Of a stretch of DNA of 64,000 bases, positions 17,907-38,360 are shown piece by piece; the stretch's first letter is position 1, and the number at the start of each line of letters is the position of its first letter. This DNA is from Aeromicrobium sp. Root495 (GTDB lineage: Bacteria > Actinomycetota > Actinomycetes > Propionibacteriales > Nocardioidaceae): contig NZ_LMFJ01000001.1 of assembly GCF_001426755.1 (NCBI RefSeq), positions 2,248,601 to 2,312,600 of the forward strand, read 5' to 3'. The notes beneath the pieces were generated by a model. The model ran no database searches and was not told the DNA's origin. It saw only the letters and a list, made by a program, of their open reading frames with translations. The translations under genes and the position numbers were made by a program.

Positions 17907-19199
<1,293 letters not shown>

Positions 19200-19208
19200 T
19201 CCCGGACC

Positions 19209-19263
19209 TGCGCCGCCCTCGACCCCGACCGCACCGTCGGAAGGTCGAAGGCGGCGCATTTCT
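19209..19263 (+). terminator. gltA terminator
   Basis: Arms TGCGCCGCCCTCGAC and GTCGAAGGCGGCGCA form a 15-base stem with one mismatch around a 20-base loop, followed by TTTCT. It sits 10 bases after the gltA stop and immediately before the truA promoter. Confidence 0.8.
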
Positions 19264-19279
19264 CGTTCGTCCCGACGAC

Positions 19280-19292
19280 TAAACTCCCCACC
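19280..19292 (+). promoter_or_regulatory. -10 element for leaderless truA mRNA
   Basis: TAAACT (19280-19285) is followed by 7 bases and then the truA GTG at 19293, so the message should begin at the start codon. No Shine-Dalgarno sequence is present. Confidence 0.65.
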
Positions 19293-20090: not shown

Positions 20091-20134
20091 GCCGACCGGA
20101 GGACCGCGCTCCCCATGGGTGGGAGGATGTGCCC

Positions 20135-20491
20135 ATGGAGTGGGACGAGCTGGTCAGCTGGGCGGGGAGCACCTTCCCCGACACCGAGGAGTCCACGTCG
20201 TACGGGACACCGGCACTCAAGGTCAAGGGCAAGCTCGTGGGGCGGCTGCGGACCGACGCCGAGGGCGCACTGGCGCTGCGCTGCTCCGCCGACGACAAGG
20301 TCGCACTCGTCGAGGGCGACGACCCCGCCTACTTCACCACCCCGCACTACGACGGCTACGACTACGTGCTGGTCCACCTCCACCGCGCCGACGCCGCCGA
20401 GCTGCGCGAGCTCGTGACCGACGCGTGGCTCCTCGTCGCCCCCACCCGCGTCCGCCAGTCCTGGACACCGCCCTCGGAGCGCTCCTCGTGA
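20135..20491 (+). CDS. MmcQ/YjbR family protein
   Basis: 118 residues. The pattern (WDELVSWAGSTFPDTEEST near the start, a Y-G-T-P-A-x-K-V-K-G-K segment, LALRC...ADDKVALVEGDD, then a tyrosine-rich YDGYDYVLVHL and a C-terminal L-R-E-L-V-T-D-A-W motif) matches the MmcQ/YjbR fold, a small CyaY-like DNA-binding-type fold with no established function. ATG 20135 is chosen because GGGAGG lies 8 bases upstream; a GTG two codons earlier is possible. Its stop overlaps the next gene (GTGA). Confidence 0.85.
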   Translation: MEWDELVSWAGSTFPDTEESTSYGTPALKVKGKLVGRLRTDAEGALALRCSADDKVALVEGDDPAYFTTPHYDGYDYVLVHLHRADAAELRELVTDAWLLVAPTRVRQSWTPPSERSS

Positions 20492-21282
20492 CCCGCCTGC
20501 TCGCCGCTCTCGCCCTGCTCCTCACGGTCCTCACCGGCTCGGCCGCCCAGGCCGCCGGCCCCACGGTGCAGCCGCTTCCCGACGGCGCCGTCGTCGACTA
20601 CCAGCTGGGCGGCAGCTACAGGCCGGCCGACGACGTCACCGTCGTCGTCCGGGACCGCACCACGAAGGCCGCCGGACGGTACTCGATCTGCTACGTCAAC
20701 TCCTTCCAGACCCAGCCCGGCACGCTCAGCTGGTGGAAGAAGCACCACCCCAGGCTCCTGCTGAGGAAGGGCTCGACGCTCGTCCACGACCCGGGCTGGC
20801 CCGACGAGGTGCTGATGGACCTGCGCACCGCCGACCGGCGCCGCGAGCTGCAGCGGGTCAACCGCCGATGGTTCGCCGGGTGCGCCCGCGACGGCTACGA
20901 GGCGGTCGAGGCCGACAACCTCGACTCCTGGACCCGCTCCTCGAAGCTCATGACGAAGGCGCAGGCCGCCGACATGGCTCGCCGACTGGCCACCGAGGCC
21001 CACGCCGCAGGACTCGCCCTCGGCCAGAAGAACACCCCCGAGCTCGACGGCAAGGCCCTCGGCCTCGACTTCGCGGTGGCCGAGGAGTGCCAGGTCTACC
21101 GGGAGTGCGGCGCGTACACGAAGCTCTACGGCTCGAGGCTCGTGGAGATCGAGTACACCGACAACGGGAAGGCCGCCTACAGGACGGCCTGCGCCGACCG
21201 CGGCGGCCGGCATGCCATCCTCCTGCGGGACCGTGACGTGGTGCCGCGCGGCACGAAGGGCTACGTCTTCCGGCACTGCTGA
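20488..21282 (+). CDS. Secreted GH114-like endo-alpha-1,4-polygalactosaminidase family protein
   Basis: 264 residues. The signal peptide (TRLLAALALLLTVLTGSAAQ) ends near residue 23. The mature chain has the features of a GH114-type TIM barrel: an early VDYQLGG, a YSICYVNSF strand, DPGWPDEVLMDLR, and GYEAVEADNLDSW with acidic residues at a barrel strand end. Characterised relatives cleave galactosamine-containing polymers such as Pel. The GTG overlaps the YjbR stop. A role in trimming a galactosamine-type exopolymer made nearby is attractive but inferred. Confidence 0.85.
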   Translation: MTRLLAALALLLTVLTGSAAQAAGPTVQPLPDGAVVDYQLGGSYRPADDVTVVVRDRTTKAAGRYSICYVNSFQTQPGTLSWWKKHHPRLLLRKGSTLVHDPGWPDEVLMDLRTADRRRELQRVNRRWFAGCARDGYEAVEADNLDSWTRSSKLMTKAQAADMARRLATEAHAAGLALGQKNTPELDGKALGLDFAVAEECQVYRECGAYTKLYGSRLVEIEYTDNGKAAYRTACADRGGRHAILLRDRDVVPRGTKGYVFRHC

Positions 21283-21327
21283 AGCCGGCCGGGACCCTGC
21301 GCACCCCGGGACGCCACAATGGGTCCC

Positions 21328-21930
21328 ATGAGCGGCCACTACTTCGACCGTGACCCGTCGGCCGACGACCGCCGACGCGAGGTGCGCGTCCAGGTGCTGG
21401 GTCGCGACCTGTCGTTCACCACGAGCACGGGCGTCTTCTCGGCCGAGCACCTCGACCACGCGACCCGGCTCCTGCTGGAGTCGTGCGACGTGCCCGCCGG
21501 TCCCGTCACCCTGCTCGACCTCGGCTGCGGGTGGGGTCCGGTCGCCGTCATGCTGGCGCTCCAGAACCCGGACGCCACCGTCTGGGCCGTCGACGTCAAC
21601 GAGCGCGCGCTCGAGCTCACCCGGACCAACGCCGCGCGGCACGGCGTCACGGTGCACGTGGCGCTCCCCCACGACGTCCCGGCCGACCTCGCGTTCGACG
21701 AGATCTGGTCCAACCCACCGGTCCGCATCGGCAAGCAGGCTCTTCATGAGCTCCTGCTCACCTGGCTCCCCCGGCTCGGCCCCACAGGCCTGGCACGCAT
21801 GGTGGTGGGCAAGAACCTCGGCGCCGACTCGTTGCAGCGCTGGCTCGGCGAGCAGGGCTGGCCCACGCGACGCGCGGCGTCCGCGAAGGGCTTCCGCGTG
21901 CTGGAGGCCGCGCGCGGGCCGGCGTCCTGA
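21328..21930 (+). CDS. RsmC-like class I SAM-dependent methyltransferase
   Basis: 200 residues. Motif I LLDLGCGWGPVAVML, motif II VWAVDVNERALELTRTNA and the catalytic N-P-P-x (WSNPPVRIGK) that marks small-subunit rRNA guanine-N2 methyltransferases (RsmC/RlmG type). It is a single-domain protein, shorter than E. coli RsmC, as is usual in actinobacteria. Start ATG 21328 is favoured: a CACAAT hexamer ends 7 bases before it, in the leaderless arrangement seen for other genes here. An in-frame ATG at 21319 is the alternative. Confidence 0.9.
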   Translation: MSGHYFDRDPSADDRRREVRVQVLGRDLSFTTSTGVFSAEHLDHATRLLLESCDVPAGPVTLLDLGCGWGPVAVMLALQNPDATVWAVDVNERALELTRTNAARHGVTVHVALPHDVPADLAFDEIWSNPPVRIGKQALHELLLTWLPRLGPTGLARMVVGKNLGADSLQRWLGEQGWPTRRAASAKGFRVLEAARGPAS

Positions 21931-22008
21931 CCGTTCGTGCGCTCTCCTCATCGGTGCGCGAGCAGACGACGCGCACCACCGCGGGGTCTCGACGGGTTGG
22001 GGCTGGCC

Positions 22009-22014
22009 TAGGGT
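22009..22014 (+). promoter_or_regulatory. Candidate -10 box of the polysaccharide operon
   Basis: TAGGGT fits TAnnnT and would start transcription about 20 bases before the ATG at 22041, which has GGAGG at 22032-22036. The -35 is not clear. Confidence 0.45.
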
Positions 22015-22040
22015 GTTCCAGTACTCACGACGGAGGATCA

Positions 22041-23546
22041 ATGGAACTCAAGGACCTGACCCGCGCCCTGCGGCGCCGCTGGCGCCGGGTCGCCGCGCTG
22101 CTCGTCGTCGCGATCGCGATCGGCGTCGCCGCCCTGTTCCTGCTCCCCCGCCAGTACGAGTCGACGGTCCGCCTGTACGTGGAGCCCAGCCAGAACGCGG
22201 CCGGCGCCACCACCAGCTCGGCCGAGACCCAAGCGGCGTCCTACCAGGCCCTCGCCAGCACCGACGTGCTGGTCCGTCAGGTCATCGACTCGCTGGAGCT
22301 CGACGTCTCGCCGCGCGCCTTCCTCTCTGCCACCTCCACGACGGTCGAGCCGGGAACCGCGGTCATCCGGATGTCCGTGCGCGACCGGTCGCCCGAGAAC
22401 GCGCGCAAGGTCGCGCAGACCTACGCCGACACCTTCGTCCGCTATCTCGCTCTCGTCACCGGCGGCGACGCCATCACCGCGGCCGCGCTGTCCGACCCTG
22501 ACGCCGAAACAGACTCGGCGCCGGCCCAGGTGGTCCAGCCGGCCGATGAGCCGGGCCCACCCGTGTCACCGTCCACGTCCTCCATCATCGCGCTCAGCAT
22601 CCTGATCGGCCTGGCCCTCGGGGCGGCGTCCGTCTTCTTCACCGAGCTGCGCGGGCGGCGCCTGCAGGATCTCGACGACCTCGACCGCTTCGACGACCGC
22701 GTCACGGTGCTGGGTGTCGTGCCGACCGACCCTCGGGCCGCGACCGCTCAGGCCGATCCCCGGACGAGCGACGCCTGGCGCCGGGTGGCCGCCAGCCTTC
22801 AGCACATGCCTGTGCGTGACGGTGTGGCCAGCATCGTCATGACCGGGGCCGGCGACCTGTCGTCGGCTGTCGTCGTCGCTCAGCTCGGCCAGGCCACCGC
22901 CGAGGCCGGCCGCTCCACCGTCCTCGTGGACGCGGACCTTCGGTCCGGACGGCTCACCAGCCTCCTGCACCACTCCGGTCCGGGCCTGGCGGAAGCCTTG
23001 AGCGACCCTGAGCCCGGGCCTGCGCCGAGCGTGGAGCTGACGCCCGGCCTCGTCCTCCTCCCCGCGGGAGCCTTGAGTCCCGATGCCGGAGGCCTCACCG
23101 CCTCACCGCGTCTCAGCACGCTGCTGCGCGACGCGATGCGAGATCATGGGCTCGGGATCATCTCGACCGCCCCCGTGGCCGACTTCGCCGATGCGACGCT
23201 CCTGGCTCGTGGCGCAGGGCTCTTCGTCATCGTGGTCGAGCTGGGTCGTACCCGGGTCTCTGACCTGCGCAGCGCTGTCGACTCGGCTCTCGCCGTCGGT
23301 GTCACCGAGCCGGCCGTCCTGGTCGTGCGTGCTCTCGCGGACCAGCCGGGTCCACGAGCCGAGACGACTGCTCCCGACGAGGCTCCGGACACGAACACGG
23401 ACGTGGAGACAGTCACAGTCACAGTCACGGACACGGACGCGGACACGGACGCGGACGCGGACCCGGCCACCGACACGGCCCCGGTCGTGGAGGAGGCTCC
23501 CGAGCCTCCGCGCAGAAGTAGGGCAAAGGCACGAAGAAAGGCTTGA
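22041..23546 (+). CDS. Wzz-type chain-length protein with degenerate BY-kinase domain
   Basis: 501 residues. Residues 1-180: polysaccharide co-polymerase (Wzz) domain with a first transmembrane helix near 16-37 and a periplasmic part; the second helix is near 182-202. Residues about 205-435 resemble the bacterial tyrosine-kinase/ParA fold, with the Walker A' strand VLVDADLRSGRLTSLLH intact, but the P-loop position reads MTGAGDLSSAVVV with no GK(S/T), so ATP binding is doubtful. The tail (about 445-501) has no Tyr cluster but a T/V/D repeat and ends in a basic patch. First gene of a likely operon with the four Pgl-like genes. Confidence 0.88.
   Translation: MELKDLTRALRRRWRRVAALLVVAIAIGVAALFLLPRQYESTVRLYVEPSQNAAGATTSSAETQAASYQALASTDVLVRQVIDSLELDVSPRAFLSATSTTVEPGTAVIRMSVRDRSPENARKVAQTYADTFVRYLALVTGGDAITAAALSDPDAETDSAPAQVVQPADEPGPPVSPSTSSIIALSILIGLALGAASVFFTELRGRRLQDLDDLDRFDDRVTVLGVVPTDPRAATAQADPRTSDAWRRVAASLQHMPVRDGVASIVMTGAGDLSSAVVVAQLGQATAEAGRSTVLVDADLRSGRLTSLLHHSGPGLAEALSDPEPGPAPSVELTPGLVLLPAGALSPDAGGLTASPRLSTLLRDAMRDHGLGIISTAPVADFADATLLARGAGLFVIVVELGRTRVSDLRSAVDSALAVGVTEPAVLVVRALADQPGPRAETTAPDEAPDTNTDVETVTVTVTDTDADTDADADPATDTAPVVEEAPEPPRRSRAKARRKA
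23386..23481 (+). repeat. Hexanucleotide-type tandem repeats inside the Wzz-like gene
   Basis: Three AGTCAC units are followed by alternating ACGGAC/GCGGAC units, encoding Val-Thr then Asp-Thr/Asp-Ala repeats. The unit length of 6 keeps frame, so slippage would change the tail length without disrupting the gene. Confidence 0.85.
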
Positions 23547-23639
23547 GGCTTTACGATGGTCCAATGCCCTGCATGGACGATGACACCTGCCGGGAGCACC
23601 CCGTTCATGTCGACGAAATGAAAGTGCGGTAGTCAGCTC

Positions 23640-25493
23640 GTGCGAGCCAGCCTGATCGAGATCCTTCGCAACCGGCGACTCGTGAGCCTGGGCGTGCTGG
23701 ACGTCTCGGCCTGGATGGTGGCGCTGTACTTCGCCACCGCGCTCCGCCTGGAGGACCTGGCTGTCGTCGCCGGGTCGACGCTGTCAGCCGGAGACGCCGT
23801 GCCCTTGTTCGGCGTCCTGGCTGTGGGGGCAGTGGCAGGGGCGGCCCACCTCCTGACCGCCTGGCTCTTCCGCCTCCATCACGGCCGATCCGCCATGGCG
23901 TCGATCGACGAGCTCTTCCTGCTCGGCACCGTCGTCGCCGTGGCCGGTGTCGTCTCCACCGTCTTCAACCTGGTGTCCCCTGCGGTCGGGGTGCCTCACT
24001 CGGCGCCGATCATCGCTGCGTTCCTGACCTTCTGCCTCACCGCCTGGGTTCGAGGCCTGTGGCGTCTCGTCACCCGTGAACGGGCCGGGATGTCCCGGGC
24101 CACTGCGCCTCGCGTCGTCATCGTGGGTGCAGGCGAAGGCGGGCGACAGCTCATCGCCTCCATGCTGAACGACCCCAAGGAGCGATGGAATCCCGTCGCC
24201 CTCGTCGATGACGATCCCCGCAAGAAGCACTTCCGGTTCCGCGGCCTGTCCGTCCTCGGACGGATCGAGGACGTCGCGCAGGTCGCCACCGACGTCAGGG
24301 CCAGCGGCGTCGTCCTGGCCATCCCCAGTGCCAGCACCGAGCTCGTGAACCGCATCACCTCCGACGCCCTGGCCCATGGGCTCGACGTCAAGATCCTTCC
24401 GGGGGTCGACCAGCTGCTGGACGGCGTCACCGTGCGCTCGGTCCGGAGCCTCGAGCCCGGCGACCTGCTGGGTCGTCACCAGATCGAGACCGACCTCGAG
24501 TCGATCGCCGCCTACCTGTCCGGCAAGCGCGTCCTGGTCACGGGAGCCGGCGGGTCCATCGGGTCGGAGCTGTGCCGCCAGATCGTCCGGTTCAGTCCGT
24601 CGGCCGTCGCCTTCCTGGACCGCGACGAGTCCGCGCTGCACACCCTGGCCCTGTCCATCGACGGCCGGGCGGACCTCGAGTCCGACCACATCGTCCTGGC
24701 CGACATCCGCGACTCCCAACGCCTCGAAGAGGTGTTCTCGGAGTTCCGTCCTGAGATCGTCTTCCACTCCGCCGCGCTGAAACACGTGAACGTCCTGGAG
24801 CGCCATGCCTCGGAGGCTCTCCAGACCAACGTCTGGGGGACGCTCAACCTCTTGGACGCCGCCGAGCGGCACCACGTCGAACGCTTCGTCAACATCTCCA
24901 CCGACAAGGCGGCCGATCCGGTCAACGTCCTGGGCTACAGCAAGCGCATCGCAGAGCGACTGACCGCGGAACGCTCCGAGCGGGCCTCCGGCACCTACCT
25001 CAGTGTGCGGTTCGGCAACGTGTTCGGCACCAACGGCTCGGTCATCAAGACCTTCGCCGCCCAGATCGAGGCCGGAGGCCCGGTCACGGTCACGGACCCT
25101 CAGGTGACTCGGTACTTCATGACGGTGCACGAGGCCGTCGAGCTCGTCGTCCAGGCTGCGGCCATCGGCCGTGACGGCGAGGCCCTCGTGCTCGACATGG
25201 GCGAACCGGTGAGCATCCTGGAGCTCGCCCAACGCATGATCAGCCTCAGCCAGGAGGACGTCCGCGTCGTCTTCACCGGTCTGAAGACCGGCGAGAAGCT
25301 GCACGAGGACCTCTTCGGCATCGACGAGATCGGCACACCCGCCGTCCACGGACTCATCTCGCACGTCACGGTCCCACCGATCCGCCCCCACGAGGCGCTG
25401 CGCGTGGATCGCAGCCAGAGCAACGACGTCGTCACCGCCGGTCTCGCGGAGCTGGCCCTTCGCCACAACACGATCCCGAGCGCTGTCCAGTGA
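23640..25493 (+). CDS. Membrane-bound UDP-sugar 4,6-dehydratase, PglF/CapD type
   Basis: 617 residues. About four N-terminal transmembrane helices (18-145), a CoA-binding-like Rossmann domain (VVIVGAGEGGRQL near 159-171) and an extended SDR dehydratase domain (VLVTGAGGSIGSELC near 298-312; DxRD-like ADIRDSQRL; NISTDKAADPVNVLGYSK with the catalytic region; RFGNVFGTNGSVI). The family (PglF, WbpM, CapD) makes UDP-4-keto-6-deoxy-HexNAc from UDP-GlcNAc. It starts with GTG at 23640. It overlaps the aminotransferase gene (GTGA), which would use its product. Confidence 0.93.
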   Translation: MRASLIEILRNRRLVSLGVLDVSAWMVALYFATALRLEDLAVVAGSTLSAGDAVPLFGVLAVGAVAGAAHLLTAWLFRLHHGRSAMASIDELFLLGTVVAVAGVVSTVFNLVSPAVGVPHSAPIIAAFLTFCLTAWVRGLWRLVTRERAGMSRATAPRVVIVGAGEGGRQLIASMLNDPKERWNPVALVDDDPRKKHFRFRGLSVLGRIEDVAQVATDVRASGVVLAIPSASTELVNRITSDALAHGLDVKILPGVDQLLDGVTVRSVRSLEPGDLLGRHQIETDLESIAAYLSGKRVLVTGAGGSIGSELCRQIVRFSPSAVAFLDRDESALHTLALSIDGRADLESDHIVLADIRDSQRLEEVFSEFRPEIVFHSAALKHVNVLERHASEALQTNVWGTLNLLDAAERHHVERFVNISTDKAADPVNVLGYSKRIAERLTAERSERASGTYLSVRFGNVFGTNGSVIKTFAAQIEAGGPVTVTDPQVTRYFMTVHEAVELVVQAAAIGRDGEALVLDMGEPVSILELAQRMISLSQEDVRVVFTGLKTGEKLHEDLFGIDEIGTPAVHGLISHVTVPPIRPHEALRVDRSQSNDVVTAGLAELALRHNTIPSAVQ

Positions 25494-26617
25494 GCCGCAT
25501 CTATCTCTCCGCGCCGGACGTCGGCGAGGCCGAGGAACAGCTCGTCGTCGATGCGATCCGCTCCGGCTGGGTAGCCCCGCTCGGAGAGCACGTCGACAAG
25601 TTCGAGGCCGAGGTCGCGGCGCGTGTCGGCGCCCGGAACGCGGTCGCGCTCTCCTCCGGCACGTCCGCCCTCCACCTGGCCCTGGTGTCCTGGGGTGTCG
25701 GCCCAGGCGACCACGTGCCCACCTCCTCCTTGACCTTCGTCGCCACGGCCAACGCCATCAGCTACACCGGCGCCACACCGGTCTTCGTCGACAGCGAGCC
25801 GACGTCGGGCAACATCGACGTCGATCTGCTCGAGGAGACCATCCTCCGGCTCAGGGCAGAGGGCAAGAACGTCCCGGCCATCGTGCCCGTCGACCTGCTC
25901 GGCACGTGCGTCGACTACGCGCGCATCGGCGACCTGGCCGACCGGCTCGACGTCAAGATCCTCTCCGACGCGGCCGAGTCGTTCGGGTCCCGGAGCGGAG
26001 ACCTCGAGGCCGGCGCGTTCGGCGATGCCGCCGTCCTGTCCTTCAACGGCAACAAGATCATGACCACGTCAGGTGGCGGCATGCTTGTCACCGACGACGC
26101 CGCCCTGGCCGACCACGCCCGGTTCCTGGCCACGCAGGCCCGGGAGCCGGTCCCCCACTACGAGCACGAGGAACGCGGCTACAACTACCGGCTCTCGAAC
26201 CTGCTTGCAGCCCTGGGCCGCGGCCAGCTGGCCCGGCTCGACGAGATGATCGCGCGGCGCAGGTCGCTCCGCCAGAAGTACGCCGCCCGCCTCGGGTCGC
26301 TCGACGGCGTCCGGCTCCTCGGCGACCCCGCCGGCACGGACGACAACTGCTGGCTCACCGCCATCGTGGTCGACCCGGGCGTCGCCGGGTGGAACGTCAC
26401 GGACCTCGGTGCAGCTCTGGGCCGCCAGGACATCGAGTCCCGCCCTCTCTGGAAGCCCATGCACCGTCAGCCTCTCTACGCCGACCACCCGTCGGCCCTC
26501 AACGGAGTGAGCGACCGACTCTTCGAGCAGGGACTCTCCCTGCCGAGCGGCTCGGTCATGACCGACGACGACGTCGCGCGAGTCATGGACACCGTCGACG
26601 CGTTCCTGCAAGGCTGA
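25490..26617 (+). CDS. DegT/DnrJ/EryC1/StrS aminotransferase, PglE-like
   Basis: 375 residues. PLP-dependent sugar aminotransferase: ALSSGTSALHLAL (phosphate pocket), SDAAESFGS and the PLP lysine in SFNGNKIMTTSGGGM (Lys near 189), then YNYRLSN. The position between a PglF-like dehydratase and PglC/PglD-like genes points to 4-amination of UDP-4-keto-6-deoxy-GlcNAc, as PglE does. The GTG overlaps the dehydratase stop. Confidence 0.93.
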   Translation: MSRIYLSAPDVGEAEEQLVVDAIRSGWVAPLGEHVDKFEAEVAARVGARNAVALSSGTSALHLALVSWGVGPGDHVPTSSLTFVATANAISYTGATPVFVDSEPTSGNIDVDLLEETILRLRAEGKNVPAIVPVDLLGTCVDYARIGDLADRLDVKILSDAAESFGSRSGDLEAGAFGDAAVLSFNGNKIMTTSGGGMLVTDDAALADHARFLATQAREPVPHYEHEERGYNYRLSNLLAALGRGQLARLDEMIARRRSLRQKYAARLGSLDGVRLLGDPAGTDDNCWLTAIVVDPGVAGWNVTDLGAALGRQDIESRPLWKPMHRQPLYADHPSALNGVSDRLFEQGLSLPSGSVMTDDDVARVMDTVDAFLQG

Positions 26618-26621
26618 CGGC

Positions 26622-27248
26622 ATGACACGAGCCGGTGACGCGGTCAAGCGCGCTCTCGACGTCGTCGTGAGCGCGCTCGGCCTCGTGGTCGCCAGCCCCG
26701 TCATCCTGGTGACGGCCATCCTCGTGCGACGACGGCTCGGAACGCCGGTCCTGTTCCGCCAGGTGCGCCCGGGCCGTCACGGGCAGCCCTTCACCCTCGT
26801 GAAGTTCCGCACGATGCTCGATCCCGCCGAAGGTCTGACGTCGGACGAGGACCGACTCACGCCCTTCGGGCGGCGCCTGCGATCGCTGAGCCTCGACGAG
26901 CTTCCGAGCCTGGTCAACGTGCTGCGCGGCGACATGTCCCTCGTGGGACCGCGGCCGCTCCTCCTGAGCTACCTCGCGCGGTACACGCCCGAGCAGGCGC
27001 GCAGGCACGAGGTCCGACCTGGTATCACCGGGCTCGCCCAGGTCTCGGGCCGCAACGAGGTGCCGTGGGAGCGGCGCTTCGAGCTCGACGTGCAGTACGT
27101 CGATCGCCGTTCACTCCGGCTCGACCTCCGCATCCTCGCGGCGACAGCACTGCCCGTGCTGGCCAGACGTGGCATCAGCGACGGCGGTTCGTCCACGATG
27201 ACGGAGTTCCTCGGGTCCCCCGGACCCGACGAGACCCGCCATGCGTGA
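26622..27248 (+). CDS. Initiating sugar-phosphate transferase, PglC-like
   Basis: 208 residues. Monotopic phosphoglycosyltransferase: one N-terminal re-entrant hydrophobic segment (about 10-33), then PVLFRQVRPGRHGQPFTLVK, FRTM, a D-E-L-P motif in SLDELPSLVNVLRGDMSLVG, PRP and RPGITGLAQVSGRN. The small size without extra helices is PglC-like rather than WbaP-like. It loads the first sugar phosphate on undecaprenyl phosphate. ATG 26622 lies 4 bases after the aminotransferase stop. Confidence 0.94.
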   Translation: MTRAGDAVKRALDVVVSALGLVVASPVILVTAILVRRRLGTPVLFRQVRPGRHGQPFTLVKFRTMLDPAEGLTSDEDRLTPFGRRLRSLSLDELPSLVNVLRGDMSLVGPRPLLLSYLARYTPEQARRHEVRPGITGLAQVSGRNEVPWERRFELDVQYVDRRSLRLDLRILAATALPVLARRGISDGGSSTMTEFLGSPGPDETRHA

Positions 27249-27873
27249 CCTGGTCATCATCGGGTGCGGTGGCTTCGGCCGGGAGACCTCCGACGTCGTC
27301 GCCGCCGTCAACGCCTCGTCACCCCGGTGGAACCTGCTCGGCTTCCTCGACGACACGCCCAGCGAGGAGAACCTCGCACGAGTGCGCCGGCTCGGTCTCG
27401 AGGTCATCGGGACCGTGGCCGACGCCCACACCCTGACGGGTGCTGCCTACGTCATCGGCGTCGGCTCGGGGCGCGCTCGCGAGAGCATCGCGTCGCAGCT
27501 GGACGATGCAGGCCTCGAGGCGGTGACGCTGATCCATCCGAGCGCCACGATCGGGAGCGACACCTCCGTGGGACCCGGGGCCGTGGTGTGCGCCCAGGCC
27601 TCCATCACCACCAATGTCGTCATCGGACGCCATGTGCACGTCGATCGCGGATCGACGGTCGGGCACGACTCGACCCTCGACGACTACGCCACCATGCACC
27701 CCCTCTCCTGCCTGTCGGGCTCGGTGCGCCTCGGCGCACGGGTGCAGCTGGGCACTCATGCGGTCGTCCTGCCGGGGAGGTCGGTGGGCGACGACTCCGT
27801 CGTCGGCGCCGCAGCCTGCGTGGTCCACGACGTCCCTGCCGGTGCCACCGTCAAGGGCGTCCCGGCCCGGTGA
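27241..27873 (+). CDS. Sugar O/N-acyltransferase, PglD/NeuD-like
   Basis: 210 residues. N-terminal Rossmann-like region LVIIGCGGFGRETSDVV binds the nucleotide sugar; the C-terminal half is a left-handed beta helix of hexapeptide repeats (ATIGSDTSVGPGAVV and following) with the catalytic His in DRGSTVGHDSTL and the closing VPAR. PglD acetylates the 4-amino group to give UDP-diNAc-bacillosamine. It overlaps the transferase gene by 8 bases and the flippase gene by 4. Confidence 0.93.
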   Translation: MRDLVIIGCGGFGRETSDVVAAVNASSPRWNLLGFLDDTPSEENLARVRRLGLEVIGTVADAHTLTGAAYVIGVGSGRARESIASQLDDAGLEAVTLIHPSATIGSDTSVGPGAVVCAQASITTNVVIGRHVHVDRGSTVGHDSTLDDYATMHPLSCLSGSVRLGARVQLGTHAVVLPGRSVGDDSVVGAAACVVHDVPAGATVKGVPAR

Positions 27874-29090
27874 GCAGACGTAGCCCCACCGGCCGTCACG
27901 TCGCACAGCGGACCCGGAAGGTCGTCGACCCGCGGGCCGTGGCGGTCGTCTCGACCACGGGAGTGTCCCTGGCCGCGGCCGGCGTGGCCTTCGTGGTCAA
28001 CATCCTGATGGCGCGTCAGCTCGGCCCGTCGAGCCGGGGCGAGGTCGCGCTCGTGCTGCAGTCCGCCTACGTGCTGGCGCCGGTCCTGGCGCTCGGCCTG
28101 GACCGCCAGGCCCTGCGTGGCGCGGACTCCATGGGCGGGACGCCCCGCGTCCGGCACGTCTGGATCACTGCCGCCGTGCTCGCTGTTGCAGCAGCACTCG
28201 CCGGATCCCTGACGGCTCTCGCCTGCGTGGGCATCGCCGCGTGCACCGCCTACGTGAGCATCGAGCGCGGGGTCGGGATGGCACGTCGCTCGCTCGTGAG
28301 GTTCGTCGTCGTCGCCCTGGGACTTCAGGCCTGGATCCTCGGAGCCTCCGTCGCACTGTTCCTCGCGGAGGTCGACGACGTCCGCTGGTGGCTGGGGGTC
28401 TACGTGGCGCCTGCCGTCGCGCTCCTCCTGCTCACCCTCGCGTCTCGTCGACACCCCGACCAGCTCGTCGGCCCCAGCCGAACCTCGCTCGTGTACATGG
28501 CGGGAGGCCTCGCCGCGCTCCTTGCCGGTCGAGTCGAACGACTCCTCCTCCCGGTCCTCTCCTCGTCACGACAGCTCGGCCTGTACATGGCCATCGCGAC
28601 CACGAGCGAGATGATCGCCTGGGCCGCTCGCGGACTCGGGGAGAGCCGCGTCAAGGACTTCGTGGAGAACCGTCCGAACCGGCGGTCCATGGCCCGGCTG
28701 GCGGCACGTGACGCAGCCATCTTCGTGGCCGCGGCCATCCCGGTGGCCCTCGGACTCTTCTACGTCGTGATCCCGCTGCTCGGACCGGGCTTCGACTCGT
28801 CCCGGCCCCTGGTGATCCCGCTGTGCGCCGCCTCGGTGGCGTGGTGCGTCTACCTGCAGATGTCCTCGCGCTGGCTGGGGAGCGCGTCGTCGCTCCACAG
28901 TCTCGGGCTCGACGCCACCACGACCGTGGTGACGGCCGGACTCGTCGTGGCCCTGGTGCCGTCGCACGGGGCGCTCGGCGCGGCCTATGCCTGCCTCGGC
29001 TCCTACGTGGTCATGTCCACTGCCGCGGTGGCCTTCTTCCCGCGTCCGACTGCGCCCACCAGCGAATACTCGGGCCCTGGGCCGTCGTGA
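27870..29090 (+). CDS. Polysaccharide flippase (Wzx/MATE-like)
   Basis: 406 residues of almost continuous hydrophobic segments (about 11-12 predicted helices) with an early GVSLAAAGVAFVVNILMARQ, typical of Wzx/MurJ-MATE oligosaccharide flippases. It would move the lipid-linked repeat unit outward. The frame stays open far upstream, but the GTG at 27870 overlaps the PglD-like stop as GTGA and begins just before the first helix. Its last 80 bases overlap the convergent ligase/polymerase gene. Confidence 0.88.
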   Translation: MSRRSPTGRHVAQRTRKVVDPRAVAVVSTTGVSLAAAGVAFVVNILMARQLGPSSRGEVALVLQSAYVLAPVLALGLDRQALRGADSMGGTPRVRHVWITAAVLAVAAALAGSLTALACVGIAACTAYVSIERGVGMARRSLVRFVVVALGLQAWILGASVALFLAEVDDVRWWLGVYVAPAVALLLLTLASRRHPDQLVGPSRTSLVYMAGGLAALLAGRVERLLLPVLSSSRQLGLYMAIATTSEMIAWAARGLGESRVKDFVENRPNRRSMARLAARDAAIFVAAAIPVALGLFYVVIPLLGPGFDSSRPLVIPLCAASVAWCVYLQMSSRWLGSASSLHSLGLDATTTVVTAGLVVALVPSHGALGAAYACLGSYVVMSTAAVAFFPRPTAPTSEYSGPGPS

Positions 29091-30288
29091 CGACGCCGTG
29101 GTGGTGCTCCTGCCGCTGGGCGCAGACCGCGGCGAGGCCCAGGAAGAACCAGGCGAACCGTGAGTCGTAGTAGGACCCCGAGAACATCGAGGCCAGGAGG
29201 ACGAACCATCCGGTGGCCAGGAGCATGAGCACGGGGAGCTCGAGGGGCCGGTGCCGGAGCGCAGCGGCGGTCAGGGACCCGACCGCGAGGACCAGGAGCA
29301 CCAGACCGATGAGCCCGCCGTCGGCCGTGGTGGCGAGCACCAGGTTGTGCGGGTGCTCGAAGTCGACGAAGCGGCCGACCAACGCGTAGTAGCTGTCCAG
29401 GCCGGCACCCGTCAGGGGGTGCTGCACGGCGATCTCGAAGACGTCGTGATAGATCGACCCGCGACCCGCGTCGTTCTGCTGCTCAGCGGTCTGGTCCACG
29501 AAGCGCTCCACGAGAAAGTCTCGCACCGAGGGCAGCGCGACGACAGCAGTGGCAGCCGCGGCCAGGACCGCAAGGGTCGAGCGGATCACGATGCGCCGAG
29601 GCAGCAGCCGCACCAGAGGAAGCGCCAGTGCAGCGGCAACCACCAGGGCCGCCAGAAGGCCGCCGCGGGAGCCCGAGAGGACAGCGCCGAGCACGAACCC
29701 CGGAGCGAGGCAGAGAGCGAGCCGGCGCCCGTACCAGGCGAGCACCACCGAGGCCACCAGCCCGAAGACCATCACCCGGACGAAGACATTGGGACCTCCA
29801 CCGAACGCGGAGTAGCGGCCCTGGATCCCTGGGCCCGCGGCGAGCGCCGCCACGAGGTACAGCGCAGCGACCCCGTAGAACCACGTCCACAGCCGCTCGA
29901 GCACGAGCGGAAGCCCTCTCGTGTAGGTGATCACGAACCACACGAGAAGCGCCGCTGCGGCCATGACGACCAGGCTGGTCACGTTGTCGGCGACCCGCGC
30001 CTGGTCCGGGGACCACACGGCCGAGATGGACAACCAGGCCGCCCAGGCGAGGAAGAGCGTGCGTGCGACGTGCACGTCGACGTCCGTCGACCGCTCCTGG
30101 CGCCGACGGCTCCCCGAGAAGAGAGCCACGGGGATCGCTGCGGCGGCCAGCCCCACCCACCGCAGGTCGAGAGCAGGCAGGCCCGGACTGATGCGGTCGA
30201 GCGTGAATCCACCGGCCAGGAACAGCACCAGGAGCACCGCCACCGACGGAAGCGCCCACGGGGAGGGAAGATGGGCCGGCCGTCTCAC
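29011..30288 (-). CDS. O-antigen ligase / Wzy polymerase-like membrane protein
   Basis: 425 residues, about 11-12 transmembrane helices and a large extracytoplasmic loop near 280-350 with GRGSIYHDVFEIAVQHPLTG followed by AGLDSYY and FEHPHNLVL, the H-P-H-N pattern of the Wzy_C/WaaL family. It probably polymerises the lipid-linked repeats. The GTG at 30288 overlaps the glycosyltransferase stop. The 3' end overlaps the flippase gene tail to tail. Confidence 0.9.
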   Translation of the reverse strand: MRRPAHLPSPWALPSVAVLLVLFLAGGFTLDRISPGLPALDLRWVGLAAAAIPVALFSGSRRRQERSTDVDVHVARTLFLAWAAWLSISAVWSPDQARVADNVTSLVVMAAAALLVWFVITYTRGLPLVLERLWTWFYGVAALYLVAALAAGPGIQGRYSAFGGGPNVFVRVMVFGLVASVVLAWYGRRLALCLAPGFVLGAVLSGSRGGLLAALVVAAALALPLVRLLPRRIVIRSTLAVLAAAATAVVALPSVRDFLVERFVDQTAEQQNDAGRGSIYHDVFEIAVQHPLTGAGLDSYYALVGRFVDFEHPHNLVLATTADGGLIGLVLLVLAVGSLTAAALRHRPLELPVLMLLATGWFVLLASMFSGSYYDSRFAWFFLGLAAVCAQRQEHHHGVVTTAQGPSIRWWAQSDAGRRPPRQWT

Positions 30289-31499
30289 GGGCGACTCTCT
30301 GCGGCACTCACGAGCACGTCGAGCAGCTCCTGGGCGAGGGCGTCGCGATCGAACGTCGTTCGTCCCAGCTCTCCCGCGGCCCGGGCCGCCGACGTCGTCG
30401 CCTCGCTCGAGCCCAGGAAGTCGACCAGGAGGCGGGCTGCCTCGTCGAGGTCTCCGTGCGGCAGCACGAGACCTGCGCCCGACGACTCGATGAGCTCGGC
30501 GAGCCAACCGCGATGATTGATCATGACCGGTCGACCGGCCGCGAAGGTGTCGAACACCTTGTTGGCGCTGTTGGCCTCGAGTGCCGGCAGCGGCGCGACG
30601 AGGGAGCACGAGACGGAGGATGCGCTGAGCAGCGCCGGCATCTCTCGCTTGGGAACGGGCGGTCGCATGAGGAAGTTCTTCTCCCAGACCCCCAGCTCCC
30701 GGGCGCGGGCCTCGATGAGGGGCGCCTCGACCCCCGCACCGACGACGAGGTAGCGGATCGGCGACTGGTCCATGGTTCGTGCGGCGAGCTCGGCCAACCA
30801 GCCCACGCTGTTGACGTGTCCGAGCGTCCCTCCGTACAGGACGATGGGGTCCTCGGCGGGCCAGGGCAGGCCTGATCGCCAGGCCGCGCCCACGGCCGGG
30901 TCCACAGCGAAGTCCTGGACGTCGCTCGAGTTGGGGATCACCCGGATGCGCTCACGCGGGTACCCGGCGTCCACCACGCCGTCGGCCATGTCGGGCGAGA
31001 GGGCCACGACCCTCTGCGAGCTCCGATAGGCGAACCGTTCCAGCCGACGGGCGAGCCACCGGAGGACCGGGTTGCCCAGGGCACCGAGCGCGATAGGGGT
31101 CTCCGGCCACAGGTCCCGCACCTCGAAGACCAGCGGCTTGCGTCGTCCACGAGCGGCGACGACCGCCGGCACGATGATGGTGAGGGGGGTGCTCGTGGCG
31201 AGGACGACATCCGGGCGCAACGACCACGCCTTGGGTCCCGCGAGGAGCGCGAAGTGGAAGAAGGCCCACAACCGGCGGGCGAAGCTCATGGTGTTGTCGT
31301 ACGGGACTGCGAGCGAGACCACGGTGATCCCGTCGATCTCCCACGTGCGCCAGCCGCGGCCGGCCGCTGGGTCCTGGTCCGAGGTCACCATGACGACCTC
31401 ATGACCGGCCTCGACGAACCGTCGAGCCATCTCGTACGACCGCGTCCCGCCCGACTGGGACGGCGTGCGGAAGTACTGATGGAGGTAGACGATCCGCAC
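30285..31499 (-). CDS. GT4 family glycosyltransferase
   Basis: 404 residues. Typical GT-B glycosyltransferase related to WbuB/PglA types: IVYLHQYFRTPSQSGGTRSYE at the N-terminus (acceptor side), EVRDLWPE, and in the C-terminal half LYGGTLGHVN and an E-A-N-S-A-N-K-V-F-D donor-binding segment near 310. It is the only sugar-adding glycosyltransferase recognisable in the island. The start is GTG at 31499 behind GGAAGG. It is divergent from the GH16-like gene. Confidence 0.92.
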   Translation of the reverse strand: MRIVYLHQYFRTPSQSGGTRSYEMARRFVEAGHEVVMVTSDQDPAAGRGWRTWEIDGITVVSLAVPYDNTMSFARRLWAFFHFALLAGPKAWSLRPDVVLATSTPLTIIVPAVVAARGRRKPLVFEVRDLWPETPIALGALGNPVLRWLARRLERFAYRSSQRVVALSPDMADGVVDAGYPRERIRVIPNSSDVQDFAVDPAVGAAWRSGLPWPAEDPIVLYGGTLGHVNSVGWLAELAARTMDQSPIRYLVVGAGVEAPLIEARARELGVWEKNFLMRPPVPKREMPALLSASSVSCSLVAPLPALEANSANKVFDTFAAGRPVMINHRGWLAELIESSGAGLVLPHGDLDEAARLLVDFLGSSEATTSAARAAGELGRTTFDRDALAQELLDVLVSAAESRP

Positions 31500-31568
31500 G
31501 TGTGACCTTCCCGTTGCGCCCTCGCGACGACCCGTTTCAGCAACCGGTCAGGCTCTTGGTGCCCGTGT

Positions 31569-31574
31569 TAGTGT
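31569..31574 (+). promoter_or_regulatory. -10 box of first GH16-like gene, in a motif shared with the second
   Basis: TAGTGT lies inside CGTGTTAGTGT, 35 bases before the ATG at 31610. The second GH16-like gene has CGTGTTAGCGT with its TAGCGT 36 bases before the ATG. Confidence 0.55.
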
Positions 31575-31609
31575 ACTCGCGTCCGGCGCTCCCCGATCTC
31601 AAGGTCCGC

Positions 31610-33118
31610 ATGAATCGACTGACCCAAGCGGCCCTGATGTCGCTGTGCGGCCTCGTGGCTGCGACGGCTTGCGCCGGCCCATCACTGACGCCGGGTGCCC
31701 AGACCGGACCCGATGTGGGTGCCGTCCTGCGGTCAGAGGTCTCCGAGCCACTGCAGGGCGAGGAGCTCGACCTCACCGGTTCCACGGGAACCTCAGGGCG
31801 GCGTACCGTCGAGCTGCAGCGCTTCACGTCCGGAAGCTGGACCTCCGCCGTGGCCAAGGTCCGCTCCAGCGCGTCGGGTCGCTTCCAGTTCTCCGCACTG
31901 AGGGTCGATCAGGACCAGGTCTACCGCGCTCGTACCGCTGGCAGCTCACCGATCGTGACCAACGCCCTGAAGCTGGAGGTCCAGCCGGCGAGGCAGGACG
32001 CGGCCGTCAAGACCATGCCCCTCCTGGCCGGACGTGCCACCGAGGCCACCGGCGACGTCAAGCGAGGCCTCGGCCTGGTGCAGGCCGGGTTCGAGCCCGC
32101 CCGCCGAGGTCGAACCGTGGAGTTCGAGGCTCGAGGCGACGACGGCACCTGGCGTTCCATGGGCCGGACCGCCCAGGACGAGAACGGCCGTGCCGCGCTC
32201 ATCACGAAGGACCCGCAGCAGTACGACCGTTGGCGCGTCACGACCGCCGCCTACCACGGACTCCCCGAGGCCACGGCCGAGAAGGCGCCGGTGCGGTGGA
32301 AGGAGACGTTCGAGTCCGACTTCACCGAGTCGGGCTCCTCCGACCAGTGGAAGAACCGTCTGGTGCGGACCTGGCTGCCCGACCGGACCTGCAGCTTCAT
32401 CTCCGCCGACCAGGTCTCGTACCCGGGCGGAGTGGCCACCCTCTCCACCGAGGCGCTGTCCAAGGAGCCCCGCGGCATGGAGGGCACAGCACCGGGAAAC
32501 CAGGTCCACGAGCAGCTGTGCACGGACGCCACCGACCAGGCGCGGTACTACGCGAGCAGCATGATCGTCTCCCAGAAGGACGGTCAGCTGTACTCCTTCG
32601 TCCATGGGGTCGCCGCCGCCCGGATCAAGTTCGATCCCAAGGCTGGCCAGCACGCCGCCTTCTGGCTGCAGACCAACCAGGACCAGGACACCGAGGTCGA
32701 CGTCGTGGAGTCCTACGGCCGGGGCGTCCGCCCGTTGTCCAGCGGTCTTCACGTCACGCAGAAGGACGGCACCACTCGTCCGTTCCAGATCAGGCTCCAC
32801 GAGGTCCTTCCCCCCGACATCGACGACGACTGGTACACCAAGTTCCACACCTTCTCGGTGGAGTGGACCCCCCGTCAGCTCGTGTTCCGGGTGGACGGCA
32901 TCGAGACCTTCCGCACCTCCAGGGGAGCGACGAGCTCCCCGCACTTCGTCCTCCTCAGCAACTTCGCCGCCGACTACGAGGTTCGCTACAACACGGGCGA
33001 ACGGGCCTCCATGGAGGTCGACTGGGTCCGCGTGTGGCAAGAGCCCGACGACGTCCCGGCCGAGGAGGGTCCTGCCACCACCGAGGATGAGCCGGACCTC
33101 GTGGCTCCGCCTTCCTGA
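31610..33118 (+). CDS. GH16-like secreted (probable lipo-) protein with two N-terminal modules
   Basis: 502 residues. The N-terminus has a signal with a possible lipobox (VAATAC, Cys near 23). Two beta-sandwich-like modules follow (RRTVELQRFTSGSW... near 65-105 and RGRTVEFEARGDDGTW... near 165-210). The C-terminal GH16 laminarinase-type domain (about 255-480) has the catalytic EVDVVE (E-x-D-x-x-E) pattern preceded by AAFWLQTNQDQDT. An acidic, Pro-rich tail follows. ATG 31610 is chosen over an upstream in-frame ATG because it begins the signal peptide. The substrate may be the polymer made by this island. Confidence 0.88.
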   Translation: MNRLTQAALMSLCGLVAATACAGPSLTPGAQTGPDVGAVLRSEVSEPLQGEELDLTGSTGTSGRRTVELQRFTSGSWTSAVAKVRSSASGRFQFSALRVDQDQVYRARTAGSSPIVTNALKLEVQPARQDAAVKTMPLLAGRATEATGDVKRGLGLVQAGFEPARRGRTVEFEARGDDGTWRSMGRTAQDENGRAALITKDPQQYDRWRVTTAAYHGLPEATAEKAPVRWKETFESDFTESGSSDQWKNRLVRTWLPDRTCSFISADQVSYPGGVATLSTEALSKEPRGMEGTAPGNQVHEQLCTDATDQARYYASSMIVSQKDGQLYSFVHGVAAARIKFDPKAGQHAAFWLQTNQDQDTEVDVVESYGRGVRPLSSGLHVTQKDGTTRPFQIRLHEVLPPDIDDDWYTKFHTFSVEWTPRQLVFRVDGIETFRTSRGATSSPHFVLLSNFAADYEVRYNTGERASMEVDWVRVWQEPDDVPAEEGPATTEDEPDLVAPPS

Positions 33119-33220
33119 GCCGCGCGCGGACATCCACTCCCCCTGCGAGACCCGAGGGCTGTGCCTGCAGACTCCTCTGAGACGATGACCGTCGATCATG
33201 ACGCGACCAGGAGTACATCT

Positions 33221-34480
33221 GTGACGCACGACTTCGCCATCATCGGTCTTGGCTATGTCGGCCTGCCCTTGGCCCAGCAGGCCACTCGGTCAGGTCTGGA
33301 CATCCTGGGCTTCGACATCAATGACGGTGTCGTGGCTGCCCTCAACGATGGACGCAGTCACATCGACGACCTCAGCGACGCCGACGTCGCAGCGATGCGG
33401 GACAACGGGTTCGAGGCCACGACCGACGCCCAGCGTCTGGCCGACGCCGACGCGATCATCATCTGCGTGCCCACGCCGCTGTCGGTCGACGGCGACCCCG
33501 ACCTGAGCCCTGTGGTCTCGGCCTGCGCCACCATCGCCCAGCAGCTCCGCGCCGGCCAGCTCGTGGTCCTGGAGTCCACCACCTACCCCGGCACCACCGA
33601 CGAGGTCGTGCGACCCATCCTCGAGAGGAGTGGGCTCACCGCCGGCGTCGACTTCCACCTCGCGTTCAGCCCCGAGCGCGTCGATCCGGGCAACCCGGTC
33701 TACGGCATCGCCAACACCCCCAAGGTCGTGGGCGGGTTCACCCCGCGCTGCACGGAGGTCGCAGCCGAGCTCTACGGCCGCTTCATCGAGACCATCGTGC
33801 CCTCGAGCGGGACCCGCGAGGCCGAGATGACCAAGCTCCTCGAGAACACGTACCGCCACATCAACATCGCCCTCGTCAACGAGATGGCGCAGTTCTGCCA
33901 CGAGATGGACATCGACCTCTGGGAAGTCATCCGGAACGCGTCCACCAAGCCCTTCGGGTTCCAGGCCTTCTACCCGGGCCCGGGCGTGGGCGGACACTGC
34001 ATCCCGATCGATCCCAACTACCTCTCGTACAAGGTCCGCACGACGTTGGGCTACCCGTTCCGGTTCGTCGAGCTCGCCCAGTCCATCAATCTGCAGATGC
34101 CCCACTACGTGGTCCAGCGCATCGGCGACCTCCTCAACGACAAGAACCAGGCGATCAGCGGGGCGCGGGTCCTCCTTCTCGGCGTCACGTACAAGCCAGA
34201 CATCGCCGACCAGCGCGAGTCGCCGGCCACGCCCATCGCCGAGCTCCTCCTGTCCAAGGGCGCCGGCCTGACCTTCCACGATCCCCTCGTCCAGACCTGG
34301 ACGCCCGGCGGTACCGCAGTCCCGCGGGCCGACGACCTCGACGCCGAGCTGGCCCGGGCCGACCTGGTGGTGCTGCTGCAGAACCACCGGTCCTACGATC
34401 TCGACCACCTGGTCGCCACGGCCCCCTTGCTCTTCGACACCAAGGGGAGCACCACCCAGCCCGGCGTCGTCCGGCTCTGA
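33221..34480 (+). CDS. Nucleotide-sugar dehydrogenase (UDP-HexNAc type)
   Basis: 419 residues. Rossmann motif FAIIGLGYVGLPLA, the ESTTYPGTT segment, and the catalytic Cys in PGPGVGGHCIPIDPNYL, which is closer to WbpA/WbpO/TviB (UDP-HexNAc 6-dehydrogenases) than to UDP-glucose dehydrogenase. The C-terminal LGVTYKPDIADQRESPA is also typical. It would provide a UDP-uronic acid for the repeat unit. I use GTG 33221 because AGGAG lies 7 bases upstream; ATG 33185 and GTG 33161 are in-frame alternatives. Confidence 0.92.
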   Translation: MTHDFAIIGLGYVGLPLAQQATRSGLDILGFDINDGVVAALNDGRSHIDDLSDADVAAMRDNGFEATTDAQRLADADAIIICVPTPLSVDGDPDLSPVVSACATIAQQLRAGQLVVLESTTYPGTTDEVVRPILERSGLTAGVDFHLAFSPERVDPGNPVYGIANTPKVVGGFTPRCTEVAAELYGRFIETIVPSSGTREAEMTKLLENTYRHINIALVNEMAQFCHEMDIDLWEVIRNASTKPFGFQAFYPGPGVGGHCIPIDPNYLSYKVRTTLGYPFRFVELAQSINLQMPHYVVQRIGDLLNDKNQAISGARVLLLGVTYKPDIADQRESPATPIAELLLSKGAGLTFHDPLVQTWTPGGTAVPRADDLDAELARADLVVLLQNHRSYDLDHLVATAPLLFDTKGSTTQPGVVRL

Positions 34481-34525
34481 CGGAGCGCTTCGCCTGACCG
34501 TCCACGCGGTGGACCGGCACCGTGT

Positions 34526-34531
34526 TAGCGT
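34526..34531 (+). promoter_or_regulatory. -10 box of second GH16-like gene
   Basis: TAGCGT within CGTGTTAGCGT, 36 bases before the ATG at 34568; it matches the element upstream of the first GH16-like gene in sequence and position. Confidence 0.55.
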
Positions 34532-34567
34532 GAGGCGCCTCACTCACCTCCATCTCGGGACAACCGC

Positions 34568-35749
34568 ATGCCTTCTCGTCGTCTGACCACCCTCACCGTG
34601 AGCGGGCTCGCCTCGGTGGCCCTCCTCGGATCCGTGCTGAGCGGCGGCCCTTCTGTCGCCGCCACCTCCTCGACGACGGTCCTCGTCAGGACCCTTCCGG
34701 GCAACGCCGGTGACAGCGGCAGCAGCACCACCGCCAGCACCGGGTCCACCAAGAACCGCGACCTCGTCGTGGCCTGGACCAACCACAAGCTGGCGGGCCG
34801 CTACATCTCGTTCTACGCCCTGAACCCTTCCACCAGGAAGTTCGTCTACAAGAAGCGCATCCGGACCAACAGCGTCGGCGAGGCCAACTTCTCAGGCGCC
34901 GGACTCGCCAAGCTCCGGTGGAAGGTCGTGGCAGCCAAGACCAGCCGGACCCGGGCGGACAGCTACACCATGCCGCGGACCACGGTGTGGAAGCAGGCCT
35001 TCTTCGACGACTTCTCCGGCTCGGCGCTCGGCGCGAAGTGGCGTCAGCGCTACCCCAACACCTGGCTGCCCGGTCGCACCTGCACGTTCAGCAGCCCCGA
35101 CATGGTGAAGGTCGGCTACGGGCGAGCGGCTCTCTCCACCCAGCGGTACGGGTCCTCCCGGCCCTCCGGGATCAAGGGTCCGATGCCCAGCTCGTCGAAG
35201 TTCGCCTCCACGTGCAAGGACAAGTCCGGGCGGCCCTCGGTGTACAAGTCGGCTGCCATCGACACGGCCACGGCTGACCGGAACCAGTTCACGATGCTGC
35301 ACGGTGTCGTGGCAGCACGGGTCAAGTTCTCCCCTCGCCCCGGACAGCACGCTGCGGTGTGGTTGCCGGCCAACGGCGCGGGCGACACCGAGATCGACGT
35401 CGTGGAGTCCAACGGGAACTACTACGACAGCCGCAAGCGCCGTCGTGCCATGGTCGCCGGTGTCTACTACGGAAGCTCGAGCAAGGTCCAGACCGTCGTG
35501 CCCGACTCCTACAAGACCTGGTCGAGCAAGTACCACACCTTCTCGGTCGAGTGGACTGCCAGCCAGTACATCTTCCGCATCGGCTCGCGCGTCATCCTGC
35601 GCACCACCAAGGGCCGGACGTCGCACGACCACTACCTGTCGCTCACCAACTTCGTGGCCGACTGGGCCATCAAGAACAACGCCGGGAACGACAGCTCCAA
35701 GCTCGCCTCGTCGATGTACGTCGACTGGGTGAAGGCCTGGACGAAGTAG
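34568..35749 (+). CDS. Secreted GH16-like protein
   Basis: 393 residues. The signal peptide (basic N-terminus, then SGLASVALLGSVLSG and a cleavage near SVAA) is followed by one beta module (about 60-125) and a GH16-like domain (about 140-393) with EIDVVE. It shares TWLPxRTCxF, GQHAAxWL and TFSVEWT with the gene at 31610, so the two are paralogues with different N-terminal module numbers. Probably secreted rather than lipid-anchored. It ends 22 bases before a strong hairpin terminator. Confidence 0.88.
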   Translation: MPSRRLTTLTVSGLASVALLGSVLSGGPSVAATSSTTVLVRTLPGNAGDSGSSTTASTGSTKNRDLVVAWTNHKLAGRYISFYALNPSTRKFVYKKRIRTNSVGEANFSGAGLAKLRWKVVAAKTSRTRADSYTMPRTTVWKQAFFDDFSGSALGAKWRQRYPNTWLPGRTCTFSSPDMVKVGYGRAALSTQRYGSSRPSGIKGPMPSSSKFASTCKDKSGRPSVYKSAAIDTATADRNQFTMLHGVVAARVKFSPRPGQHAAVWLPANGAGDTEIDVVESNGNYYDSRKRRRAMVAGVYYGSSSKVQTVVPDSYKTWSSKYHTFSVEWTASQYIFRIGSRVILRTTKGRTSHDHYLSLTNFVADWAIKNNAGNDSSKLASSMYVDWVKAWTK

Positions 35750-35770
35750 TCCACCGTCCCTGAGCGATCA

Positions 35771-35807
35771 CGAAGGCCCCGGCAGCACCACGCTGCCGGG
35801 GCCTTCG
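35771..35807. terminator. Bidirectional hairpin terminator
   Basis: A perfect 16-base stem (CGAAGGCCCCGGCAGC and its complement) with a 5-base loop lies between the convergent GH16-like and S8 protease genes. The T tracts are weak on both sides. Confidence 0.85.
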
Positions 35808-35871
35808 TCGTCCACACCGTCACAGCGCTGCTCCGCCCACGTCGCACGGGCTCGCCCCCCGTGGGTCCGGG

Positions 35872-38274: not shown

Positions 38275-38319
38275 GGAGCTCCTCGCGTGGGTGCGACGCA
38301 CTCCCGCGTCGCTCCGGAC

Positions 38320-38325
38320 ATCCTA
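38320..38325 (-). promoter_or_regulatory. Candidate -10 box of the S8 protease gene
   Basis: TAGGAT on the minus strand, about 45 bases before the ATG. No clear -35. Confidence 0.4.
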
Positions 38326-38360
38326 GACGTCGGACCGGGGAGCCCCGGCCCGGGCGAACG

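Follow-up and report, generated by a model that had tools for sequence, protein, structure and literature searches.

A compact gene island at 22041–34480 of the 64,000-nucleotide window analysed here (contig positions 2248601–2312600 of Aeromicrobium sp. Root495, whose 3.58 Mb genome is 99.94% complete) probably directs the synthesis of an acidic surface polysaccharide by a Wzx/Wzy pathway that starts from bacillosamine. The genes which a first-pass annotation, made by a model from the letters, had named in this interval were confirmed (Table 1). The reading draws on their presence and homology, two protein folds, a tree placement and the absence of certain families from the genome.

From these data we infer every reaction of the pathway, as well as the donor of the GT4 glycosyltransferase, the two-sugar repeat and the role of the polymerase. 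PglF (the Pgl-type genes are written F, E, C and D in gene orders below) would convert UDP-GlcNAc to a 4-keto-6-deoxy sugar, PglE would aminate it at C4 and the PglD-like enzyme would acetylate the product to UDP-N,N'-diacetylbacillosamine (UDP-diNAcBac), from which PglC would place diNAcBac-phosphate onto undecaprenyl phosphate. The next sugar, added by the single GT4 enzyme, might be a uronic acid supplied by the island's dehydrogenase, and Wzx would flip the lipid-linked unit. The PF04932 protein would then polymerise it, possibly as a disaccharide repeat, into an acidic polymer, with the Wzz co-polymerase and its pseudokinase domain as a scaffold during polymerisation. The GH16 enzymes, perhaps with the GH114 enzyme, would trim or release the polymer outside the cell.

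The best PDB sequence match of the dehydratase was WlaL, which is C. jejuni PglF (239 bits), followed by the CapD-named 6bwc (143 bits), CapE (138) and 2gn4 (109), the last of which we take to be PseB/FlaA1. Among solved relatives the enzyme is therefore closest to PglF. The Leu found at the position of a Met in C. jejuni PglF was rejected as a special trait since the long PglF-type rows of the host family also have Leu. This Leu/Met residue is not known to be diagnostic of retaining versus inverting enzymes, and a split on it was dropped. The phosphoglycosyl transferase (PGT) matched C. concisus PglC (8g1n) best, at 186 bits and 48% identity, with the next match at 115 bits. It has the PF02397 domain, the DE dyad, the PRP motif and a C-terminal tail resembling those of C. 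concisus PglC and of the PGTs in two actinobacterial loci described below (L150 and L054), a tail missing from three Actinoplanes PGTs. The PDB match and the tail comparison agree with its annotation as a PglC-type initiating transferase. Further initiating transferases of this family are encoded elsewhere, PF02397 having been found in four places in the genome. A family search of the genome for STT3/PglB (PF02516) gave 0 matches, and 4 of 14 control genomes, all archaea, did match. This upheld the view that an N-glycosylation ligase of this family is absent, and N-glycosylation was rejected on the same ground.

In the assembly machinery, Wzx was recognised as a flippase by its MOP fold, with no Pfam match, and the PF04932 protein had a WaaL-like fold (structure comparisons by VIA-align). 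The latter is presumed from context to be the polymerase. Its fold and profile would also suit a ligase or an O-oligosaccharyltransferase; Wzy polymerases belong to the same superfamily, within which the fold does not discriminate polymerase from ligase. It could accordingly be argued that the bacillosamine lipid-linked glycan is transferred to proteins or another envelope acceptor by this protein, acting as a PglL/WaaL-like enzyme with no polymerisation. Such transfer is unlikely: a scan of the island genes gave no polymerase candidate other than the PF04932 protein, and the island encodes a Wzz co-polymerase, whose counterparts immediately precede Wzx-Wzy in three loci of Actinoplanes.

The making of a different 4-amino-sugar, for instance of the dTDP-Qui4NAc, perosamine or FucNAc4N type, is improbable, even though the perosamine synthetase (Per) came close in score to the best PDB match of the aminotransferase (217 bits and 36% identity vs 239 bits and 38% for 1o61, presumably C. 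jejuni PglE) and VioB was the best match of the acetyltransferase (100 bits, vs 80 for the pilin glycosylation protein 4m98 and 53 for PglD, 3bss). In alignments, the TTSGGGML and HYEH..GYNYRLSN stretches were common to the aminotransferase and 1o61 and were not found in Per. A tree of 25 chosen rows (12 from an alignment, 10 of 80 genome loci and 3 PDB stretches) split Per and 7b0m, with support of 100/99, from the 23 rows including the window protein and C. jejuni PglE. Only the 3 PDB rows are of known function, long branches were flagged, and the tree has no PseC, ArnB, WbpE or fucosamine-type rows. This was a small form of the check suggested with the annotation, namely whether the enzyme groups with perosamine or fucosamine families: it grouped with PglE and not with perosamine synthase, fucosamine-type aminotransferases lying outside the tree, and a perosamine pathway was rejected on this basis. 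The affinity of the dehydratase to PglF also speaks against another 4-amino-sugar, and so does a scan of ten island proteins, in which no additional dehydratase for dTDP- or GDP-sugars appeared. The predicted bacillosamine enzymes were thus supported by PDB or NCBIfam matches of the dehydratase, the aminotransferase and the acetyltransferase family and by the placement of the aminotransferase on the PglE side of the tree.

A role of UDP-diNAcBac as feed for a nonulosonic (legionaminic) acid pathway is very improbable and was rejected: PglE scores 354 bits with a LegC-family model (below its cut-off of 420) and a single NeuB gene, adjacent to one for a cytidylyltransferase, occurs in the genome, but a family search of this genome for the UDP-GlcNAc 2-epimerase PF02350 gave 0 matches (11 of 14 control genomes matched), NeuB lies about 1.5 Mb from the island in 20-kb surroundings with no island-protein match at 1e-6, and PglC is present in the operon. 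These surroundings (L147) hold cytidylyltransferase, NeuB and DUF6716 glycosyltransferase genes at 8441–11961 (contig 741441–744961), which, as a guess, serve another nonulosonic acid such as Kdn.

The annotated nucleotide-sugar dehydrogenase was recovered by its Pfam families and by PDB matches, and it carries the Cys motif and scores above the TIGR03026 cut-off. Its product is guessed to be UDP-GlcNAcA or UDP-GalNAcA rather than the N-acetylmannosaminuronic acid (ManNAcA) form. The ranking of its matches weighs against this guess: the highest PDB score, 225 bits, went to 4r16, a protein designated UDP-ManNAcA dehydrogenase, with Cap5O next at 219 bits, and the two NCBIfam ManNAc-dehydrogenase models, including WecC, scored 263 each vs 203 for TviB, all under cut-off. 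In a tree of 10 rows (one further row was dropped as mis-cut, and the PGAP-labelled TviB was long-branched), E. coli WecC, Cap5O, 4r16 (P. horikoshii) and a Bacillota protein (L116) formed a 100/99 set without the window protein, whose KPFG....PGPGVGGHC stretch is longer than that of WecC. ManNAcA thus appears disfavoured by the tree and by the absence of the epimerase, with NCBIfam and PDB scores pointing the opposite way.

The second half of the Wzz protein is BY-kinase-like (bacterial tyrosine kinase), as judged from NCBIfam kinase-region matches, all below cut-offs. Its P-loop reads GAGDLSSA, the GK[ST] being lost, and its last 90 residues contain 0 Tyr, with Walker A' kept. Both marks of a tyrosine autokinase of the Wzc type (polysaccharide co-polymerase class PCP-2a), the Walker A lysine and the Tyr-rich tail, are therefore missing. 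All nine other host-family rows with coverage >0.7, one of them (L013) from the same genome, have the GK[ST] loop and 2–7 Tyr in the last 90 residues. The lysine and the tail Tyr were absent in 3 of 3 Actinoplanes rows beside matching Wzx-Wzy, two further Actinoplanes copies (L161 and L164) have Arg for Lys, and the co-polymerase of L150 looks canonical. Because the catalytic motifs are lost, the kinase domain would act as a scaffold. PMC12004946 reports pseudokinase PCP-2 proteins from Myxococcus and Caulobacter and names single-chain Gram-negative examples; in the phosphorylation-independent pairs EcpK/EpsV (Myxococcus) and HfsB/HfsA, a Wzz part functions with a kinase-like domain that has neither P-loop nor Tyr tail. 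The island co-polymerase differs from the latter pairs in being one polypeptide, in its actinobacterial origin and in its recognisable Walker A'. It would provide a case, from a Gram-positive and in a single chain, of chain-length control that does not depend on phosphorylation.

Counterparts of the island were sought in other genomes. PglE matches (1e-60) occurred in 32 of 197 host-family genomes, own included. The 18 stretches taken from the 31 other PglE genomes, two of them short contigs, contained PglF in 14, PglC in 16 and PglD in 11 cases, F+C in 12 and F+C+D in 8. In a wider contig scan, limited to the best 80 of at least 588 PglE stretches, F+C was found in 19 of 33 actinobacterial loci and F+C+D in 10; for the 47 other loci the counts were 14 and 7, respectively. 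The bacillosamine cassette is therefore common. In contrast, the assembly genes are patchy: among 294 host-family genomes (own included), the island Wzy at 1e-40 matched only its own genome and the GT4 at 1e-80 its own and one other, which ruled out conservation of the whole island in close relatives. L054 has, next to F-E-C-D, the GT4 most similar to that of the island (53%) and a dehydrogenase at 59%. In L053 (G004), an F-E-C locus, two GH16-like genes (30–31% to those of the window) were seen near dehydrogenase-like genes at 8709–19995.

Nearly the full set is present in three Actinoplanes genomes. Their loci (L117, L128 and L131; Actinoplanes or Paractinoplanes) contain E-GT4-Wzz-Wzx-Wzy contiguously; on the same contigs, at 4.5, 14 and 9 kb from Wzy, lie PglF, a dehydrogenase (48–49%) and a PGT. 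Another locus, L150, has F-E-C-D, GT4, Wzy and Wzx. It was found via P0013, a Wzy of Aeromicrobium with matches in 2 of 293 host-order genomes, own included. Together with its counterparts in Actinoplanes and L150, the island suggests that the bacillosamine strategy extends to actinobacteria. GNAT/FemAB-like proteins, an FAD-binding hydroxylase-like protein and a polysaccharide deacetylase were also noticed in L131 (8039–19947) with L163 (784–11357).

Several of these observations, along with the VioB score of the acetyltransferase, which exceeds that of either PglD-type structure and would allow another acyl group or substrate, the ranking of the dehydrogenase matches and the breadth of PF04932, weigh against the bacillosamine-initiated pathway with a two-sugar repeat. 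The Actinoplanes stretches, covered except for 2.1 kb between L128 and L162, gave no match to PglD, and the PGTs there lack the PglC-type tail; in these genomes the module held in common may therefore begin with a sugar other than diNAcBac. No dehydrogenase match was found within 20 kb in L150. A second GT4-family gene lies beside PglF in L163 (Actinoplanes) and further glycosyltransferase (GT) genes are present in L054, so that a single GT is not a constant feature of such loci; with a gene in L165 that by its look, with no family scan, resembles the second GT4 of L163, the Actinoplanes repeats may be longer. For the island itself, a scan of the genes between 20129 and 38301 gave no glycosyltransferase but the GT4, and sugars could be added by transferases encoded elsewhere in the genome. 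A further reading, put forward only tentatively, is that actinobacteria have a family of minimal Wzx/Wzy glycopolymers with two sugars, of which the island is a representative. The chains, resembling teichuronic acid, would consist of a uronic acid and diNAcBac; each would be built by a single initiating transferase and a single GT4, and a one-chain pseudokinase co-polymerase that does without tyrosine phosphorylation would take part in polymerisation.

The closest characterised system is that of B. subtilis. According to PMC10653937, the first steps of its exopolysaccharide, comprising EpsCNM, EpsL and the GT4 EpsD, are experimentally established, and the authors state that this was in 2023 the first demonstration of bacillosamine in a Gram-positive exopolysaccharide. 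The same paper used Campylobacter pglC to complement an epsL deletion in B. subtilis. The epsA-O locus resembles the island in uniting UDP-diNAcBac enzymes (EpsC/EpsN/EpsM), a small PGT (EpsL), a second-sugar GT4 (EpsD) and a flippase, and differs in having five GTs vs one here (PMC10653937). The dehydrogenase, the GH16 genes and the fused pseudokinase co-polymerase set the island apart from eps, in which EpsA is Wzz-like. With this precedent, the kind of pathway is already known, and the novelty which had been attached to the combination fell away, also in view of the F+C frequency near PglE in actinobacterial loci. To this the island adds an actinobacterial host, a layout with a single GT, a dehydrogenase and a pseudokinase. 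The C. jejuni pgl system shares PglF, PglE and PglC homologues and a PglD-family acetyltransferase; in place of PglB the island has Wzx, Wzz and Wzy_C proteins. The Bacillus teichuronic acid (tua) operon, which makes a uronic acid/amino sugar polymer, contains a PGT, a flippase, a GT4, a sugar dehydrogenase, a PF04932 polymerase and a Wzz-like gene; the initiating sugar differs. Of the matches listed in the open-licence literature, none dealt with a diNAcBac polymer from an actinobacterium, which does not imply absence from print, and a genome survey of monosaccharide pathways may already record Bac2Ac4Ac pathways in actinobacteria (PMC7725333). The compact island gives a pathway short enough that every sugar might be assigned.

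Table 1. Features of the island and its borders within the window.
Feature	Coordinates	Strand	Supporting matches
GH114 hydrolase, upstream of the island	20488..21282	+	PF03537 3.2e-46
Wzz-type polysaccharide co-polymerase fused to degenerate BY-kinase (pseudokinase) domain	22041..23546	+	PF02706 7.1e-10, 39.5 bits vs cut-off 25.5
PglF-type UDP-GlcNAc 4,6-dehydratase, N-terminus membrane	23640..25493	+	PF02719 1.4e-96
PglE-type UDP-4-keto-sugar 4-aminotransferase	25490..26617	+	PF01041, PDB match, tree
PglC-type small monotopic phosphoglycosyl transferase	26622..27248	+	PF02397, DE, PRP
NeuD/PglD/VioB-family sugar N-acetyltransferase	27241..27873	+	TIGR03570 183 bits vs cut-off 160.8
Wzx flippase	27870..29090	+	MOP fold; Pfam without match
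Wzy_C (PF04932) protein, presumed polymerase	29011..30288	-	
GT4 glycosyltransferase	30285..31499	-	PF13579, PF13439, PF13692
Exported GH16 hydrolase	31502..33118	+	PF00722 3.8e-15; ExDxxE stretch
Nucleotide-sugar 6-dehydrogenase	33161..34480	+	PF03721/00984/03720; TIGR03026 above cut-off; Cys motif
Second exported GH16 hydrolase	34568..35749	+	PF00722 4.3e-11

The plus-strand genes from Wzz through F-E-C-D to Wzx form a tightly packed set. The PF04932 gene, tail to tail with Wzx, and the GT4 gene are on the minus strand, and since the strands differ, one operon for the whole island was ruled out. Downstream on the plus strand follow the first GH16 gene, for which an ATG near 31610 is by eye the likelier start, the dehydrogenase and the second GH16 gene. 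With the GH114 gene, whose membership of the island is possible but unproven, three likely secreted hydrolases are located in or beside it. The closest named homologues of the island Wzy and Wzx are from Aeromicrobium. The island is flanked by citrate synthase/truA-like and rplQ/rpoA-like genes (judged by eye, with no family search). The truA and rplQ genes are usually adjacent; within 19293–39007 the truA-like (+) and rplQ-like (-) genes are on opposite strands with the island between them. A subtilase with Ig-like domains (35872–38301) adjoins the second GH16 gene.

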